From: Patagioenas fasciata
Lineage: Eukaryota; Chordata; Aves; Columbiformes; Columbidae
Direction of reading: 5' to 3'
NCBI RefSeq assembly: GCF_037038585.1
Contig: NC_092541.1
Location: 381,445-445,444, forward strand
Length of the DNA stretch: 64,000 nt
Position numbers and translations under genes: made by a program. The number at the start of each line of letters is the position of its first letter. The first letter of the stretch is position 1. Of this stretch, positions 1 to 52,601 are shown piece after piece. The notes below the pieces were generated by a model, which did no database searches, was not told the DNA's origin, and worked only from the letters and a program-made list of their open reading frames with translations.

Positions 1-87
1 GGCAGATGCGGTGCCCTGTTCCAGCACTGTCCCCAAGGGGGCAGCCCTGACCCCCATGGCCCTGGCCATGCACCGGTACCCCCCCGG

Positions 88-272
88 TGCCACTGACCTC
101 GAAGGTGCTGCCCCCCCGTACCCCCCGGTGCCACTGACCTCGATGAAGGTGCTGCCCCCCCGTACCCCCCGGTGCCACTGACCTCGATGAAGGTGCTGCC
201 CCCCCGTACCCCCCGGTGCCACTGACCTCGATGAAGGTGCTGCCCCCCTGTACCCCCCGGTGCCACTGACCT
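88..272. repeat. 44-bp tandem array copying the exon-22 donor site
   Basis: Four extra units start at 88 (41 bp, 3-bp deletion), 129, 173 and 217 and run into the true exon end at 261-286. Read on the minus strand, each full unit contains the last 16 bases of ITGA3 exon 22 (CAGCACCTTCATCGAG) followed by its donor GTCAGT, then a GGTAC/G-run spacer. The array sits in the first part of intron 22. Confidence 0.95.
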
Positions 273-3200
273 CGATGAAGGTGCTGTTCCAGACGCGGGC
301 GCGCACGCTGAGGCTGGCGGGGTGCTGGCTGTGCAGGAGGGGACACTCGAACCAGACGCAGCGAGCGGTGCCCTTGGAGCAGCTCTGGGAGACGGGGGGG
401 TCAGGGGGGAACCAGAGTCCCCAACACACCGGTGTCCCGGTGGGGGTCACGTGTGCCAGACCCCCCACTCACCAGCACCACCTCCGACTTAGTTTTCTTG
501 GCAGTGGCCAGGGTGAGGGGGGGCTCTGCCGGCGGGGGGGCCTCCAGCTCCCGGCGCTGCCGGGACGGAGCCTGCTCCTGCAGCAGCTGGGGGGACGAGC
601 CCGTCAGTGCCCTGCAGCTCTGCCCCCCGCGGCAGTGGGGCAGGGACGCGGCAGTGGGGCAGGGACGCGGCAGTGGGGCAGGGGCGCGGCAGTGGGGCAG
701 GGGCGCGTCTGCGCACAGCAGCGGGGACGAGGTGACTCACGGTGAGGTTGAGCGGGTTGATGACCCCCCCGGGGGGCTGGCAGGTCTCGTTGCCGTTGAT
801 GAGGATCTTGGTGGGGTACAGGAGCCACTTGCCGTTGGGGACCTCGTAGGGCCACTCGAAGCCCAGCAGGATGGTGCCCAGGTCGCCCAGCGACTCGCCC
901 TTGGTGGTCACCTGCGGGGCAGAGCGGGGACGGAGACCGGCGCTCCCAACCCCCCTGCGGGGCAGAGCGGGGACGGAGACCGGCGCTCCCAACCCCCCTG
1001 TGACACCAGCCCCCCAGCTCACCTGGAAGTCGAAGGCGAGGGGGCTGCCCACGTCCTGCTCGCGCTGCATGGCCGACTCCCCCACCACGATCCCGCTGAA
1101 GTGCGACTGGGCGTGCGGGGGGGCTCTGGGGACAGGATGGGGGGACAGGCATGGCAGGGGTAGCGAGCAGCTCTGGGGCTTCCCCTGTCCCATTTATGGG
1201 ACACAGGGGGCTGTACCCCCTCATACAGCCAAGCGCGGGGGGACAGGGGCGCGGGGGGGCCGGGGGCACAGCCCCCGCACTCACACGCTCAGCGAGGACT
1301 GGATGCTGTACTCCACCAGCAGCCTGGCCAGCACCGGCCGCAGCTCCTCCTGGGTGCTTTGCCTGCCGAGGCTCCGGGTCAGCATCCCCCACCAACAGCC
1401 CCCTGGAGCTGCAGGAGCCCCGTCCTGCCCCCCAGACCCCCCCGCCTTCCCAGCCAGCGCCGCTGTGGACACGAGCCCGACCCCCCGCCGCAGACACGAG
1501 CCCGAGCCGGTGCCGCGGACACGAGCCCGAGCCGGTGCCGCGGACACGAGCCCGACCCCCCGCCGCGGACACGAGCCCGACCCCCCGCCGCGGACACGAG
1601 CCCGACCCCCCGCCGCGTCTGCCCCGGGCAGAGCAGGACCCGCGCCAGGCCCCCAGCCCACTCACGTGGACAGGTCCAGCCACACCGGCACCTCCCGCGT
1701 GTCCAGCGTGATCCCGATGGCCTCGAAGGTGATGATCAGCTCTGCCTGCGGCACGGGGACCGCGAGCCGCTCAGCCCAACCCCACCGGCTGCCGGGCCCC
1801 AAAAATGGCTGAGGGAGCCGGGGGGACACTCACCCTCTGGTTCCTCTTAAAAGGGTTGCCCAGCTCGCACAGCACCGTCTCTGCAAAGGTGCAGGCTCCG
1901 CTCTGGGGACAAAGAACGGGAGGGTGAGGAGCGTCCTGGCAAAGGCCGCCCCGGTGCTGGGGGACGCCGGGGGCGCCGGCGCGTACCGGGCGCACGGAGG
2001 AGGGCAGCAGGCTGGGCGGCGCGGTGACGTTGAGCAGCGCCTCGTGCGCGTCCTCGCCGTTGGCGGGCGAGCTGGGCGCGTTGGTGATGTTGATGCTCAG
2101 GTGCAGCTTCCGCACGTCCCGGCTGTACTGCAGCACCTGCGTCCCGTTCAGCCTGCGCAGGGACGCCCGCTCAGCGCTGGGGGACGCCCGGCGCGACGGG
2201 GACCCTGGGGCTGCGGGACGGGCGGGGGGGACCGGAGGGACCCGCTGTCACCTGGGCAGCGGCTGGTTCTGCTCGGTGACGAAGCTGCTCTGGAGCTGCA
2301 GGTTGCTGTAGCACTTGTTGTCGGAGCCGCACTCCTTCTGGAACTCGATCTGGAGGGACAGGGATGTCCCCGTGAGCCCTGTGCCGCTCCAGGCCAGGCC
2401 CGGGGGGGCCTGCAGCTCCGTGCTCCCCACCTTGGTCTCGTTCTGGTGGGACTGGTCCTGGTTGAGGACGGGGAAGGCGTCGAGTGAGTGGGGACCCAGC
2501 TGGAACTCCCTGCTCTTCTCCAGCAGCGAGTAGTTCATGGAGAGCACGATGGGGTGCAGCTTGTCACGGATGTTGTCCTGGGGGGGCAGAAACCACAGCA
2601 AAGCTCTGACCCACAGCACACCCCCCAGCTCCGGCCACGGCCAGGCACCAGGACCCAGCAATCGCTACAGGATGGGCGGGTGGACGGACAGACGGACTGC
2701 CGCCGCGCACAGACGGACTGCCGCCGCGCACAGACGGACTGCCGCCCCGCACAGACGGACTGCCGCCTCTGCTCCTGGCCCCGCTGTTCCCAAGACCCTC
2801 AGCACCCCGCACCATCCCTCTCCCAGCAGCTCGGACACACACACACAGACACACACACACACGCAGACACGCAGACAGACACGCAGACAGACACGCAGAC
2901 AGACACACACGCAGACAGACACACACGCAGACAGACACACACGCAGACAGACACACACGCAGACAGACACACATGCAGACAGACACACACACACGTGTGC
3001 ACTTGCACACTCACCAGCAGCAGCAGCTCCTTGGATTCACAGCGGGTCTCGGGCATGGAGAAGGTGCCGTGGTAGGTGGCAGAGTGGGTCCCCAAAAACC
3101 GGACCCGGGGGGCGTGCCGGTCCCTGTCTGCCTCCAGTGTGTACTGCAGGGCTGGGGGGACGGGGTGTCGCACACGCGTGTGCCTCCAACACATCCCTTG

Positions 3201-9200: not shown

Positions 9201-10623
9201 TGGCAGCAGGAAGCGTCCCCTTCCTGTCCCACCCGGCTGCGGTGGGGCCGAACCTGCGAGGACGTGCCTGGTGAGCAAAGGGCACGGGAGCTGCCACCGG
9301 GGCTGCGGGGAGCGGGTTTGCCCCCCGCTCAGCACCCTGTCCTGTCCCCGTCCCGATGGGCTCCCAGGGAAGGGGTGCAAATCCCCCGGGGTTTCACGCT
9401 CCGAAGCCTCTCGAGCCCCTGCAGCGCAGCCCCCGCTTCGCCAGCGCCGCGCTCGGACACGCACGGCCCACGTGGCCCACGCCGGGGAGCACGAGCTCCT
9501 GCTGGGCCAGAGCCCCCCAAAACCCCCGAGGCCAAGGAACCTGCGCTGCCAGCGTCTCGGGAAGATGCGCGAGCTGCTCTGTCCCTGTGCCAGCCAGGAC
9601 CTCGACGTCGATGTCCCCCGCCAGCGGCTCCGACACCCCCGGAGCCGGGGAAACCGGCCGTGGACAGGAGCCAGCGCGTCTCCGTGGGGAGGACGGTCCC
9701 CGGGCGCCGGGCCGGCTCCTGCACCCCCGCAGCTGCTCCGCGGGAACGGCCTCGCTCCCGGACCGAGCAACAACAGGCGGGCGAGCGGCCGAAATGCATC
9801 TCTGGAATGCGGAGCAGCAGATGCCCCCGTCCAGCAGCTGCCGCGGGTCCCTCTGCACGGCACAGCGGGCAGGAGGGAGCCCTGGGGTCCCCGCAGGACC
9901 CCCGCAGCCGGAGCTCCACGGAGGCCGAGCCCGCACAAACCTGCGCCCCCCGGGCGAGGAAAACCCGGCACGGCCCCTGCGCCTGCCCCCCCGCACCGAC
10001 ACGCACCTCGGCATCGCACCTCGGGCCGGAAGGGACCGGGGATGCCCGCGGGGCCAGCGGCGGGAGCACCGGAGGAAAAGGGCTTTGTGGGGCTCCGCGC
10101 GGCTGCAGGAACCACAGCTCAACAGGTTCCCCCGGGCCGGAGCTGCCGGAGCCGGGCAGAGCTGCAGGGGGGACACGAGGGGCTGCGCAACCGCCCGGGG
10201 ACATCCCCGCATCCTGAGCTCGGGGCTCCGGGGCCGCTTCCTCCCCCGAGAGACCCCCCCGCACCCACCCCCCCGGCCGCCCCCTCCCCGCAGCTCCTCC
10301 CCCGGCGCACCCCGGGACCTTTGTCCTGTCCGTGGGACCCGCACTCCCCAGGGATCCCCCCCGGCCTGAGACCCCGCTCCCGCCGCAGGGCCCCCCCGCA
10401 CTCACAGGCTCCGCTCCCGCTGCTCGGTCTGCTGGTGCAGCGCTACCGAGAAGCCGAAGAAGCCGCCGGGGGTCGCGCCCTCCTTGAGCACCGGGAAGGT
10501 GAGGTCCAGGTTGAAGGCGGCGGCGGGGAGCAGCGGGAGCAGCGCGGGGAGCAGCGGGAGCAGCGGGAGCAGCCGCCGCAGCAGCCCCGGCAGCGGGAAC
10601 AGCAGCCGCCGCCCTCCCGCCAT
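271..10623 (-). CDS. ITGA3: Integrin alpha-3, 22 exons, 3' end beyond the left edge
   Basis: Laminin-binding integrin alpha subunit, partner of beta-1, at the basal surface of epithelial cells. Coding exons in transcript order: 10406-10623, 6143-6264, 5969-6051, 5324-5573, 5126-5209, 4486-4693, 4084-4277, 3926-4014, 3712-3839, 3531-3617, 3383-3450, 3015-3151, 2431-2577, 2252-2349, 1987-2152, 1834-1902, 1666-1745, 1285-1362, 1023-1125, 741-911, 473-586, 271-384. All have AG/GT borders and the phases close to exactly 936 codons. Residues 1-36 are a Leu/Pro-rich signal peptide before FNLD. Then follow FG-GAP propeller repeats with calcium-type loops DLNSDGWQD (about 318), DINQDGFQD (about 380) and DVDGNSYPD (about 437), the leg domains, and a furin-like site RQRR|ELE (869-873) matching the human heavy/light chain cut. 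Blocks such as [20 protein letters not shown] and [12 protein letters not shown] identify ITGA3 rather than ITGA6 or ITGA7. From recalled human length (about 1,050 aa), about 100 C-terminal residues (membrane span and tail) are missing. Confidence 0.96.
629..708. repeat. 19-bp minisatellite, 4 copies, ITGA3 intron 20
   Basis: Units GGCAGTGGGGCAGGGACGC start at 631, 650, 669 and 688, the last two with A-to-G changes. They lie within the 154-bp intron 587-740. Confidence 0.93.
912..1000. repeat. 43-bp direct duplication carrying the exon-20 acceptor
   Basis: Two near-identical copies begin at 912 and 955 and fill most of ITGA3 intron 19 (912-1022). On the minus strand each copy ends with CTCTGCCCCGCAG, the acceptor of exon 20, so a decoy acceptor sits 43 bases upstream of the used one. 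Confidence 0.93.
1468..1617. repeat. 25-bp minisatellite, 6 copies, ITGA3 intron 17
   Basis: Units begin GACACGAGCCCGA and have CCCCCCGCCGCG or GCCGGTGCCGCG tails, at a regular 25-bp spacing. They occupy half of intron 17 (1363-1665). Confidence 0.93.
2690..2997. repeat. 21-bp minisatellite plus ACACGCAGACAG microsatellite, ITGA3 intron 12
   Basis: Four 21-bp units (AGACGGACTGCCGCC core) at 2690, 2711, 2732 and 2753 are followed by a CA-rich array at 2832-2997 made of ACAC and ACGCAGACAG units. Both lie in intron 12 (2578-3014). Confidence 0.92.
3165..3330. repeat. Alternating purine-pyrimidine CA/TG/CG tract, ITGA3 intron 11
   Basis: Long runs of alternating purine and pyrimidine (GCACACGCGTGTGCC, ACACGTGTGTGTGCGTGTGC) in intron 11 (3152-3382) make a candidate Z-DNA-forming segment. 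A second, shorter tract of the same kind lies at 5265-5322 in intron 4. Confidence 0.7.
4770..4985. repeat. Degenerate C-rich minisatellite, ITGA3 intron 5
   Basis: Six to seven copies of a unit of roughly 31-36 bp contain CCATGACCCCACA and CCCCCAACCCATGTTCCCC. They lie within intron 5 (4694-5125). Confidence 0.88.
6265..10405 (-). other. ITGA3: ITGA3 intron 1 (4.1 kb)
   Basis: GC-rich intron between the signal-peptide exon and the first propeller exon. It has no supportable gene; its open frames are uninterrupted only because stop codons are rare at this GC content. It contains five AP-1 motifs (6771-7658), a GGAT/GGAC microsatellite at 8571-8611, and a rising CpG content towards exon 1. 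Confidence 0.85.
6771..7658. promoter_or_regulatory. ITGA3: Cluster of five AP-1 motifs in ITGA3 intron 1
   Basis: Perfect TGA(C/G)TCA sites lie at 6771-6777, 6807-6813, 7327-7333, 7632-7638 and 7652-7658. The consensus is expected about once per 8 kb in unbiased sequence. AP-1 is a standard activator of epithelial adhesion genes, so an intronic enhancer is a reasonable inference. Confidence 0.5.
10515..10600 (-). repeat. ITGA3: 9-bp repeat encoding the LLP-rich signal peptide core
   Basis: The plus strand shows iterated GCAGCGGGA units inside exon 1. On the coding strand they give repeated Leu-Leu-Pro triplets (residues about 18-33), the hydrophobic core of the signal peptide. Confidence 0.8.
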
Positions 10624-45910: not shown

Positions 45911-47048
45911 CCACACGCCCCGGGCACCCTCATCCCCGGAGGGCCGTGCTGCAGATCTCTGCTGACGAGAGGGGACACTCACTTGTGCCCCTTTGCTCAT
46001 GCAGAGAAAACTGGAAAACGTCCCAGGGAAGAGAGAGGTACTAAAAAAAGACCAAAATCTTCACGTTAATAAGCCTGGAAAGGGAGAAGAGACAGCCTTA
46101 ATCTGATTGTGTGGGAGAGCGTAATCACAAGGGACTTGGCGCCGGGGAATCGATAGCAACCGTGGCTGCAGGGGCCGGGGTTTCAGCACAGGCTGGAAAA
46201 GCTGTTAAATTGTTTAGTTCCTGATGGGTTTTGGGAACGGGGGAGCAAAGGGAGCGCGGGATGGGATCCGGTCGGTGGCGATGGGGGAAGGAAAGGCCGC
46301 CTGTGCCTTTAATTTCTGCAGCCCAGGTTTCAGAAATGCAGCTCTGCTTGGAATGCTGCTGAGTGTGTAGCCCTGGGACAAGTGCGATGCCTTTGATTTG
46401 GCAGACTGGAGCCTCGGCAGGTTGCTTTGTGGGTGTATTTCATAAGAAAACAGAGGAGGCAGCAGTCCTGCCCTGTAACAGCCTCCAGACATTCTGGCCG
46501 GTGCTGCCGCAGCAGCAGCCAAGAAAGGCACCGCCTGGAAGAGTGGAGTTTCAAGAAAGCCTCCTCTGGTCGGGAGCTCTGCCCAGCTTGCAGAAACCTT
46601 GGCTGCGCTCGGGTTTCTCCACCGAGCGCAGGGGCAGAAAGGTTCCTGCAGGTAATTACATAAACTCTGCCTCCCTGCCCCCTTCCCGCTCCCTTCGCTG
46701 CTCAGCGCCGCTGCGATGGAGCAGGAACGCACGGTGTGGGAGCTGCAGCTGCAGTTCGGCTCCTCAGCTCCACCACGAGGAGCGGCGCTGGTGGCTGGGA
46801 ACGCGCGGCGCTCGAGGCCCGAGCCCCGATGTCCGTCTCCAAAAGTGCTTTGACACTAACGCCTGGGAGAACCTTAAATGGAGGCCCTGGGGTGGGTAAA
46901 TACAGAACGCGTGGGATCTCCCGATTGCACCAGGGCTACAGAGCAGGGTCTCACGGGCTCGTCTGAGGATGCACAGAGCCCAGCCTAAGAGCAGAGCGGG
47001 GCTCTCAGGGGCTTGTCCTCCGATCTGGGCCAGGGGTTGGGCAGGAGA
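45911..47048. other. Gene-free segment 45.9-47.0 kb
   Basis: Mixed-composition unique DNA between two minisatellites. No exon recognised. Confidence 0.5.
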
Positions 47049-47807
47049 GCACAACCGCAGCACAACCGCAGCACAACCGCAGCACAACCCGCAGCACAAC
47101 CGCAGCACAACCGCAGCACAACCCGCAGCACAACCGCAGCACAACCGCAGCACAACCGCAGCACAACCGCAGCACAACCCGCAGCACAACCGCAGCACAA
47201 CCCGCAGCACAACCGCAGCACAACCGCAGCACAACCCGCAGCACAACCGCAGCACAACCCGCAGCACAACCGCAGCACAACCGCAGCACAACCCGCAGCA
47301 CAACCGCAGCACAACCGCAGCACAACCCGCAGCACAACCGCAGCACAACCCGCAGCACAACCGCAGCACAACCGCAGCACAACCGCAGCACAACCCGCAG
47401 CACAACCGCAGCACAACCGCAGCACAACCGCAGCACAACCCGCAGCACAACCGCAGCACAACCGCAGCACAACCCGCAGCACAACCGCAGCACAACCCGC
47501 AGCACAACCGCAGCACAACCGCAGCACAACCCGCAGCACAACCGCAGCACAACCCGCAGCACAACCCACAGCACAACCGCAGCACAACCGCAGCACAACC
47601 CGCAGCACAACCGCAGCACAACCCGCAGCACAACCGCAGCACAACCGCAGCACAACCCGCAGCACAACCGCAGCACAACCGCAGCACAACCCGCAGCACA
47701 ACCGCAGCACAACCGCAGCACAACCGCAGCACAACCCGCAGCACAACCGCAGCACAACCCGCAGCACAACCGCAGCACAACCGCAGCACAACCGCAGCAC
47801 AACCGCA
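47049..47807. repeat. 11/12-bp minisatellite, about 66 units
   Basis: Two units only, CGCAGCACAAC (11 bp) and CCGCAGCACAAC (12 bp), in irregular order, with one variant (CCACAGCACAAC) near 47565. Mixed unit lengths shift frame at every change. The long open frames on all strands (46764-48548) reflect absence of stop triplets, not selection. Confidence 0.96.
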
Positions 47808-49715
47808 GCCGGGCCCCCGCCGTGCCGCGCCACGCCGTGTCAGCTCCTGCGCTGTGCGCAGCACCGGGCCGGGCCCACGCAGCAGCGCGTCCCGGGTGAC
47901 TCAGCCGTCCCCGCTCCCAGCACCGCTCCGGCGGGCGCAGCCCCGTGCCGCACACACCAGCCCGTGCCCGGGCGTGCGTCCCAGCGCGCCTGCGATTCCC
48001 CCTCTCGCTGGCAGACGTTCGGTGCCGGACGCGGCAGGATGGCGGTGCCGGGCGCCGTGGCGGACGCGGCTCGTGTCGGGAGGCAGCGGCCTGAGCTCGG
48101 CACGGTGCAGACGCAGGCGTCCGTCCGCGGTGAACCACCACCCGAGCGGACCGGGCTGGGAGCGGAGCTGAAACAAAACACCGTCTGCAAACACCCGAAA
48201 AAGCTGGGAAAGGTTGAGGCTGGCTGCGGAACCAAAGGCTTCGCCCAAAATATGTCAGTGTTCATGGAGAGACCTCCATGGAACGCCTGGGTTTCCCATC
48301 AGGTGTGCAACACTCAGGCCTCGCTCTGCACCAGCCCAGCTCTTGCTCATTCAGGCTTCAAAAAGGATCAAGAAAAGACTGTGCGGAAGGTGCCGAGGAC
48401 AAAGAGCCGCCAGCCCGGCGAGGCCTTGAGACTGCGACCTGTCCCTGCTCTGCGGGCGCGCGGAGGGCCCTGCAGAGCCAGCAGCGCACATGTCCCCAAG
48501 CCCCAGCTCCTCCCCGGGCTCCCAGGGCCCTTCCCAAACGTCTGCTGAGGTTCCTGCCAGGTCGCTTTTCCTGCTCGCCCGCAGACCCCAGCGGAGCCAG
48601 GAGCCTGGAGCCGTGTGGCACCGGGAGCCTGGAGCCGGGAGCCTGGAGCCGCGCGGCACCGAGCGCGGGATGCGCAGCGGGGCCGGGGACGGAGGGCGAG
48701 GGAGGAGCCGGGATGTGTTGTACAAGACGAGTTACACAACACGCACCTGGCGCTGAGGCTTCTGCTCCCCAGCGGGTCCCCGAGACTTCAGTAAGGGGGG
48801 TGCCCTGTGAATCCTGCCTTTCCTGGCCAGATGATCTCTGACTCAGATCCAAGGGGAAATCGTTAAGCCAGAGGCAGAGGAAGGTGTCCTGTGAGAATAA
48901 GAGCAAACGTGCGGGCGGGAGGGGAAACCAGCTGCCCCCGGGGCAGGCACAGGGACCTCCTGGGCCACCACCAACAGTGAGCAGATGTGGCCGGGTCCTC
49001 CCTGTCCCGAGCGCCACCGCGGGGCTTTGCCCCCGGTACAGACCGGGCCGCGGCTGCAGAGCCCAGCGCTGGGTCGGTCACCCGCGCTTTGCTGCCGCCA
49101 GCTCGTCTGCCGGACGGGAAACAACAGGGAGATCCCAACGCACACGGTGACCGGGACACCGGTCCCTCGGTACGGACGCCCTCCCTCACCGCGGGGACGG
49201 CTCTGCCCGGCAGCTGCAGGAGCCGCAGCGGCTCCGGTACAACCAGTTTTCCCCGTGGCAAGCCCTCCCGCGCGCTCCGCTCTGCTGGTGGCGGCGGCAC
49301 TCTCTGCCAGGCAGTCTGGGTCACACGAGCCCTCCGCTTCTGTGTCCCCAGACATGCGGGTCGGCCCTGGAAGGTCGGGGAGCAGGGACCGCGCTGCCGC
49401 AAAGGGCAGCAAAGGGCTCGGGGTCCTGTGCGGGTCACCCGGCAGCTGGTGACGTGTCCTGAGGAGCCGCGGGTCCCAGCCACACGCGGGGGACGGAGCG
49501 GAGCGCGGCAGGGACGCGGCCACGTTACCGCTGCCGCCTGCTTCGGCCAGAGCCTTTTTGGGACATCTGCATCGGACTGGCCAGAGCAGCGTGACCCCGG
49601 CCCGCGGCCGAGGCTCCTGGTGCTGCCACAGCACAAATCATAAATAATAATTAAGCTGGGCTCAGAGCAGCTGACGTAGGAGTGGCTTGGCTGGAGTCGG
49701 CGTCCCACCCGCGCG
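47808..49715. other. Gene-free segment 47.8-49.7 kb
   Basis: CpG-rich at its left end (47.81-48.15 kb), otherwise unremarkable. No supported exon. AP-1 motifs at about 47897 and 48838. Confidence 0.5.
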
Positions 49716-50765: not shown

Positions 50766-50780
50766 TCCTAACTCTGTCGG

Positions 50781-52601
50781 GGAGGCCGTGGAAGGGAACG
50801 GGCACGGCTGCTCACAGGCCTGGGGGGGCCATGGAAGGGAACGGGCACGGCTGCTCACAGGCCAGGGGGGGCATGGAAGGGAACGGGCACGGCTGCTCAC
50901 AGGCCTGGGGGGCCGTGGAAGGGAACGGGCACGGCTGCTCACAGGCCAGGGGGGGCCGTGGAAGGGAACGGGCACGGCTGCTCACAGGCCAGGGGGGGCA
51001 TGGAAGGGAACGGGCACGGCTGCTCACAGGCCAGAGGGGGCCATGGAAGGGAACGGGCACGGCTGCTCACAGGCCAGGGGGGGCCGTGGAAGGGAACGGG
51101 CACGGCTGCTCACAGGCCTGGGGGGGCCATGGAAGGGAACGGGCACGGCTGCTCACAGGCCTGGGGGGGCCATGGAAGGGAACGGGCACGGCTGCTCACA
51201 GGCCTGGGGAGGCCGTGGAAGGGAACGGGCACGGCTGCTCACAGGCCAGGGGGGGCCATGGAAGGGAACGGGCACGGCTGCTCACAGGCCAGGGGGGGCC
51301 GTGGAAGGGAACGGGCACGGCTGCTCACAGGCCAGGGGGGGCCGTGGAAGGGAACGGGCACGGCTGCTCACAGGCCAGGGGGGGCCGTGGAAGGGAACGG
51401 GCACGGCTGCTCACAGGCCAGGGGGGGCCGTGGAAGGGAACGGGCACGGCTGCTCACAGGCCAGGGGGGGCCGTGGAAGGGAACGGGCACGGCTGCTCAC
51501 AGGCCAGGGGGGGCCATGGAAGGGAACGGGCACGGCTGCTCACAGGCCTGGGGGGGCCATGGAAGGGAACGGGCACGGCTGCTCACAGGCCAGGGGGGGC
51601 ATGGAAGGGAACGGGCACGGCTGCTCACAGGCCAGGGGGGGCATGGAAGGGAACGGGCACGGCTGCTCACAGGCCTGGGGGGGCCGTGGAAGGGAACGGG
51701 CACGGCTGCTCACAGGCCAGGGGGGGCATGGAAGGGAACGGGCACGGCTGCTCACAGGCCTGGGGGGGCCGTGGAAGGGAACGGGCACGGCTGCTCACAG
51801 GCCAGGGGGGGCCGTGGAAGGGAACGGGCACGGCTGCTCACAGGCCAGGGGGGGCATGGAAGGGAACGGGCACGGCTGCTCACAGGCCAGGGGGGGCCGT
51901 GGAAGGGAACGGGCACGGCTGCTCACAGGCCAGGGGGGGCCATGGAAGGGAACGGGCACGGCTGCTCACAGGCCAGGGGGGGCATGGAAGGGAACGGGCA
52001 CGGCTGCTCACAGGCCGGGGGGGGCCGTGGAAGGGAACGGGCACGGCTGCTCACAGGCCAGGGGGGGCATGGAAGGGAACGGGCACGGCTGCTCACAGGC
52101 CAGGGGGGGCCATGGAAGGGAACGGGCACGGCTGCTCACAGGCCAGGGGGGGCATGGAAGGGAACGGGCACGGCTGCTCACAGGCCAGGGGGGGCATGGA
52201 AGGGAACGGGCACGGCTGCTCACAGGCCTGGGGGGGCCGTGGAAGGGAACGGGCACGGCTGCTCACAGGCCAGGGGGGGCCGTGGAAGGGAACGGGCACG
52301 GCTGCTCACAGGCCTGGGGGGCCATGGAAGGGAACGGGCACGGCTGCTCACAGGCCAGGGTGGGCCATGGAAGGGAACGGGCACGGCTGCTCACAGGCCT
52401 GGGGGGGCCGTGGAAGGGAACGGGCACGGCTGCTCACAGGCCGGGGGGGACCATGGAAGGGAACGGGCACGGCTGCTCACAGGCCTGGGGGGGCCGTGGA
52501 AGGGAACGGGCACGGCTGCTCACAGGCCGGGGGGGCCATGGAAGGGAACGGGCACGGCTGCTCACAGGCCGGGGGGGACCATGGAAGGGAACGGGCACGG
52601 C
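50781..52601. repeat. 40-43-bp minisatellite, about 43 copies (1.8 kb)
   Basis: The largest repeat in the window. Units contain GGAAGGGAACGGGCACGG, GCTGCTCACAGGCC and a run of six or seven G, with CCGTGG/CCATGG/CATGG variants. Units are nearly identical, so expansion or homogenisation is recent. Open frames over 600 codons in all three plus frames are artefacts of missing stop codons. Confidence 0.97.

Follow-up and report, generated by a model that had tools for sequence, protein, structure and literature searches.

A tandem array with a 44-bp unit spans the border of exon 22 and intron 22 in a putative integrin alpha-3 gene (ITGA3), where it lines up five 5' splice sites in a row. The array is probably a GC-rich minisatellite that came to span a splice junction by happenstance, an instance of what has been called exon stuttering, and the native donor of exon 22 (donor 1) is probably the one that is mostly used. 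This kind of repeat is already described, both in birds (PMC12954441) and in the human CBS gene (PMC2630376). The features on which our analysis draws are collected in Table 1, and all positions refer to the window, by which we mean the whole 64,000-nucleotide stretch of DNA that was analysed.

Table 1. Features at the two duplicated splice junctions of the putative ITGA3 gene, with their positions in the window.
Feature	Position	Strand	Remarks
ITGA3 exon 22, source of the copied exon end	271..384	-	gene model; 114 nt, phase 0 at both ends; Integrin_A_Ig_3
44-bp tandem array across the exon 22/intron 22 junction	80..286	-	Tandem Repeats Finder; 16 bp exonic
Donor 1, native exon 22 donor	269..270	-	G of GT at 270; GAG/GTCAGTGG, predicted U1 pairing -7.7 kcal/mol
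Donor 2	225..226	-	G of GT at 226; +44 nt, stop in exon 23
Donor 3	181..182	-	G of GT at 182; +88 nt, stop in exon 23
Donor 4	137..138	-	G of GT at 138; +132 nt, frame kept, 44 residues inserted
Donor 5	96..97	-	G of GT at 97; +173 nt, stop in exon 23; exon copy minus 3 bases
Junction duplication, 43-bp unit, copies the exon 20 acceptor	911..1000	-	Tandem Repeats Finder; intron 19; extra AG ending at 955

Gene model

Most of one integrin alpha gene lies within the window, encoded by the minus strand. With exons counted from the start codon, 22 of them could be modelled between positions 271 and 10623, all with GT donors and AG acceptors, and together they encode 936 residues without a stop. 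Exons 23, 24 and 25 (99, 126 and 111 nt), taken from the adjoining 10-kb stretch of the same genome, extend this to a 25-exon model of 1047 residues that is open throughout and ends in ...QPSETKRLTDDY, a tail of the GFFRR type. The membrane span is located in exon 24, while exon 23, with 33 extracellular codons, sits between it and exon 22. Exon 22 itself matches the Pfam family Integrin_A_Ig_3 (E = 4.8e-10) over profile positions 140-178 of 222 and, since the match ends at position 178, the calf-2 domain extends past this exon. The gene product is an integrin alpha chain with a calf-2 domain, a membrane span and a GFFRR tail.

The top PDB match of the joined gene model is integrin alpha-6 (E = 4.7e-126, residues 37-626), and integrin alpha-3 is absent from the best 60 of its 62 PDB matches. 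When aligned to part of human ITGA3, using an approximate human query, 131 of 229 positions are identical, and we take the tail QPSETKRLTDDY to be similar to that of human alpha-3A. The alpha-3 name, as against alpha-6 or alpha-7, is used here as a tentative one, and it rests on the tail and on this 229-position alignment. The 22-exon model counted from the start codon upholds the exon number, 22, that a preliminary description of this DNA had given, along with the probable gene, ITGA3. Two other features of the locus were seen along the way. A separate tandem array (10523-10609, periods 9-30) lies wholly within coding exon 1 of ITGA3, in its leucine-rich N-terminal stretch, and beside the integrin gene there are two homeobox coding stretches in opposite orientation, at about 16057 (plus strand, near 16.06 kb) and 19759 (minus strand, near 19.76 kb), which are presumably DLX-type.

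The array and its five donors

Tandem Repeats Finder assigns the array at 80-286 a period of 44, 4.8 copies and 97% matches, a call that contains the repeat first described at 88-272. On the minus strand its units start at 286, 242, 198, 154 and 110, and the unit is made up of the final 16 coding bases of exon 22, followed by GTCAGTGGCACC and then by two G-runs. Units 2-4 are identical and unit 1 differs by one base, while the exon copy of unit 5 lacks 3 bases, after which the unit merges into dissimilar intron sequence. The terminal 16 coding bases of the exon are therefore present in three exact intronic copies and in a fourth with a 3-base deletion; the preliminary description had units that carry these 16 bases and a GTCAGT donor, and such copies are indeed found, with the fourth intronic one short of 3 bases. 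We propose that a segment comprising the exon 22 end together with the native donor was locally duplicated in tandem to give the array. The copied donors would most likely be by-products of that process, and copy number may vary among individuals.

A chance origin of the 44-bp repeat is ruled out by 97% matches across 4.8 units. An error of assembly would mean that copies, up to the whole set, are absent from the DNA of the animal; in its favour, units 2-4 are identical and avian GC-rich tandem repeats are difficult to sequence (PMC6792250). We nevertheless regard such an artefact as very unlikely, given that the units at the edges of the array are unlike the inner ones, that the gene is open on both sides of it, with 25 exons and no internal stop, and that the stretch matched one place in the genome, in a search whose repeat counts are lower bounds.

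All five donors share the 11-mer GAG/GTCAGTGG, in agreement with the five near-identical 5' splice sites reported at the outset. They are spaced 44 nt apart, except for 41 nt before donor 5. Of the added lengths proposed earlier, 44, 88 and 132 nt stand for donors 2-4, whereas use of the fifth would lengthen the exon by 173 nt, which is no multiple of 44. No acceptor was seen within the 44-bp unit, whose CAG is preceded by G-runs and not by a pyrimidine tract, and an Rfam scan gave 0 matches at the gathering score. Among the matches listed in a search of the literature on ITGA3 donors and repeats, titles and abstract openings contained nothing on this array.

Consequences of downstream donor use

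Joined to exons 23-25, the +44, +88 and +173 forms reach stops in exon 23 after 958, 970 and 1001 residues, and these stops precede the last exon junction by 200, 208 and 200 nt. Under the 50-55 nt rule of nonsense-mediated decay, the distances of 200-208 nt predict that all three shifted forms would be degraded. Judged from the placement of these stops, decay would be likelier than a secreted protein. The secreted or truncated alpha-3 envisaged earlier would require an mRNA that survives, which the stops in exon 23 argue against, and the placement of exon 22 directly before the transmembrane exon was mistaken, as exon 23 intervenes.

The +132 form is the only one of the four downstream-donor forms that keeps the frame. 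As anticipated for an addition of this length, it is free of stops through exons 23-25, and it yields 1091 residues with the normal end and 44 residues inserted after E936. An extension that stays open to the normal end is what one might expect of a selected regulatory element, in which the array or the +132 form serves to produce a functional isoform of ITGA3 whose calf-2 domain carries 44 inserted residues. This seems to us extremely improbable, as just one of the four downstream donors preserves the frame and the insertion would fall within a conserved domain, at profile position 178 of 222. Most of the extra donors, if used, would merely ruin the message.

Given that three of the four downstream donors lead to stops in exon 23 and that the 1047-residue frame is open, the gene should rely on donor 1. 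In this reading, donor 1 would take nearly all of the splicing, and low-level use of the downstream donors would produce mostly decayed transcripts. That donor 1 wins is something we infer mainly from the need for an intact message.

Predictors of donor choice

The predicted U1 pairing is -7.7 kcal/mol for each of the five donors, which places them at the top of the 24 GT sites scanned between positions 12 and 381 and at rank 13 of 22 among the donors of the gene in the window. Equality of the five donors in core sequence and in predicted U1 pairing would count against a preference for donor 1. Where duplicated donors are equal, minigene work is reported to show that the intron-proximal copy may be preferred and, by analogy, this precedent may also count against the use of donor 1. 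Donors 1-4 have a predicted accessibility of 0.33, as against 0.48 for donor 5, and this higher value would tell slightly against donor 1. The predicted RNA structure is unaltered when quadruplexes are allowed. As a selector among the donors, RNA structure proved uninformative, with accessibility equal for the first four and higher for the fifth.

The donors also differ in the G-runs that surround them. The exon part that would be added holds 0, 2, 4, 6 and 8 G-runs for donors 1-5 respectively, and the following 100 nt of intron hold 4, 4, 5, 6 and 6. By published accounts, a G-run is a silencer when it lies in an exon and an enhancer when it lies 3' of a donor (PMC12062376); the exon counts therefore favour donor 1, while the intron counts mildly favour the later donors. 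It is plausible that the G-runs assist donor 1. Five donors with an equal core in one transcript provide a compact natural series for asking which 5' splice site wins, and why.

Comparison with known junction repeats

Exon stuttering, or sequence stuttering, was described in chicken by Hron et al. 2026 as the copying of an exon edge, together with its donor or acceptor, through the adjacent intron, and it creates potential alternative transcripts (PMC12954441). The ITGA3 array resembles it in having an exon edge with a splice site in tandem through the neighbouring intron (PMC12954441): the copies reach the final base of exon 22 (query 99-114 of 114) and include the donor. A published class of the same anatomy would, by analogy, count for the interpretation of the array as a minisatellite. 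At 16 nt and 32.2 bits, the exon copies fall below the cut-offs of the published screen (at least 20 nt and at least 42.1 bits), which are detection limits and not the verbal criterion of its authors (PMC12954441). They are nonetheless the top among 640 matches, the best other, non-adjacent real match having 30.2 bits and the best shuffled-intron match 26.3 bits. This suggests that exon stuttering is under-counted, as copies this short escape the published screen.

There are also differences. At 80-286, the ITGA3 array is shorter than the median span of 1,751 bp given for stuttering arrays, and stuttering introns prefer dot chromosomes, with 190 of 236 located there and 46 of 236 elsewhere (PMC12954441). 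The contig that carries the ITGA3 introns measures 9.48 Mb, in a genome of 1.45 Gb, and their repeat coverage is not dot-like: across the 21 complete introns, the median tandem-repeat coverage is 0, and arrays occur in 8. That the gene looks less repeat-rich than dot-chromosome genes would count against the preferred interpretation of the array. A literature search for "exon stuttering" and "sequence stuttering" returned PMC12954441 alone.

The human CBS gene offers a second parallel in its 31-bp VNTR, c.1444_1467+7, which is present in 16-21 copies (PMC2630376). By its name, the unit comprises the 24 last coding bases and 7 intronic ones, so that a donor is expected in each copy and the architecture is that of the ITGA3 array, whereas the gene, the unit and the copy number differ (PMC2630376). 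Human CBS junction repeats may belong to the exon-stuttering class; the terms "cystathionine" and "CBS" are absent from the main text of PMC12954441. Tandem genomic duplication also doubles splice signals in the intron gain of a potato RdRp gene, but there a new intron arises, while none is indicated for the ITGA3 array (PMC4974935). Work on internal tandem repeats within segmental duplications of the human genome was set aside as a parallel, since the repeats concerned are coding and UTR ones, with donors untreated in the outline and section 10 of the source (PMC2812944).

These known systems bear on a different reading of the array, as a splicing rheostat in which the downstream donors are used appreciably and the copy number of an allele governs what part of the ITGA3 message decays or contains the in-frame insertion of 44 residues. 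Length variation is seen in 183 of 192 chicken exon-stuttering introns (PMC12954441), and the CBS junction VNTR is variable in people, with more repeats reported, second-hand, to lower activity (PMC5188458). The identical 11-mers and the equal predicted U1 pairing, the best in the stretch scanned, are likewise compatible with a rheostat. We consider it unlikely all the same, as three of the four added forms are frame-shifted with early stops and the G-runs of the added exon parts may act as silencers of donors 2-5.

A second junction duplication and the placement of arrays

The interpretation of the array as a minisatellite with mostly native splicing gains from an independent second junction duplication in the same gene. 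Intron 19, of 111 nt, holds a 43-bp duplication that provides an extra AG; if used, this would add 43 nt and shift the frame, with a stop after 906 residues, beyond the normal junction at residue 803. When the introns adjacent to 22 donors and 21 acceptors were scanned for copies of these splice sites, allowing at most 4 mismatches, the exon 22 donor copies were exact and the exon 20 acceptor copy had 1 mismatch. A match of the exon 2 acceptor with 4 mismatches, in the 4.1-kb intron 1, was taken as chance. The exon 20 duplication has its own counterpart in CBS 844ins68, a duplicated intron/exon junction of which one copy is strongly favoured; the two are alike in bringing two splice sites close, and differ in that 844ins68 has 68 bp and affects another gene (PMC2630376). 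The same source terms the 844ins68 sites "splice donor sites", yet the site where intron 7 meets exon 8 is an acceptor (PMC2630376).

Overall, splice junctions are spanned by 2 of the 11 merged arrays in the ITGA3 region, the average over 20,000 random placements being 3.84. The fraction of placements with at least two junction-spanning arrays was 0.945, and that with at most two was 0.188. Arrays do not seek junctions here, and junction-spanning is no commoner than array density predicts; special targeting is therefore not needed.

A broader generalization would hold that stuttering extends beyond dot chromosomes and below the published cut-off size, as at two junctions of ITGA3, a conserved adhesion gene, that copy number is an inherited dial which tunes the functional ITGA3 message through decay of the out-of-frame products, and that human CBS junction repeats are of the same class. 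Taken as a whole, we consider this unlikely. Elsewhere in the window there are two large minisatellites, at 47048-47809 (11 bp x 67.3) and at 50779-52601 (43 bp x 42.7).
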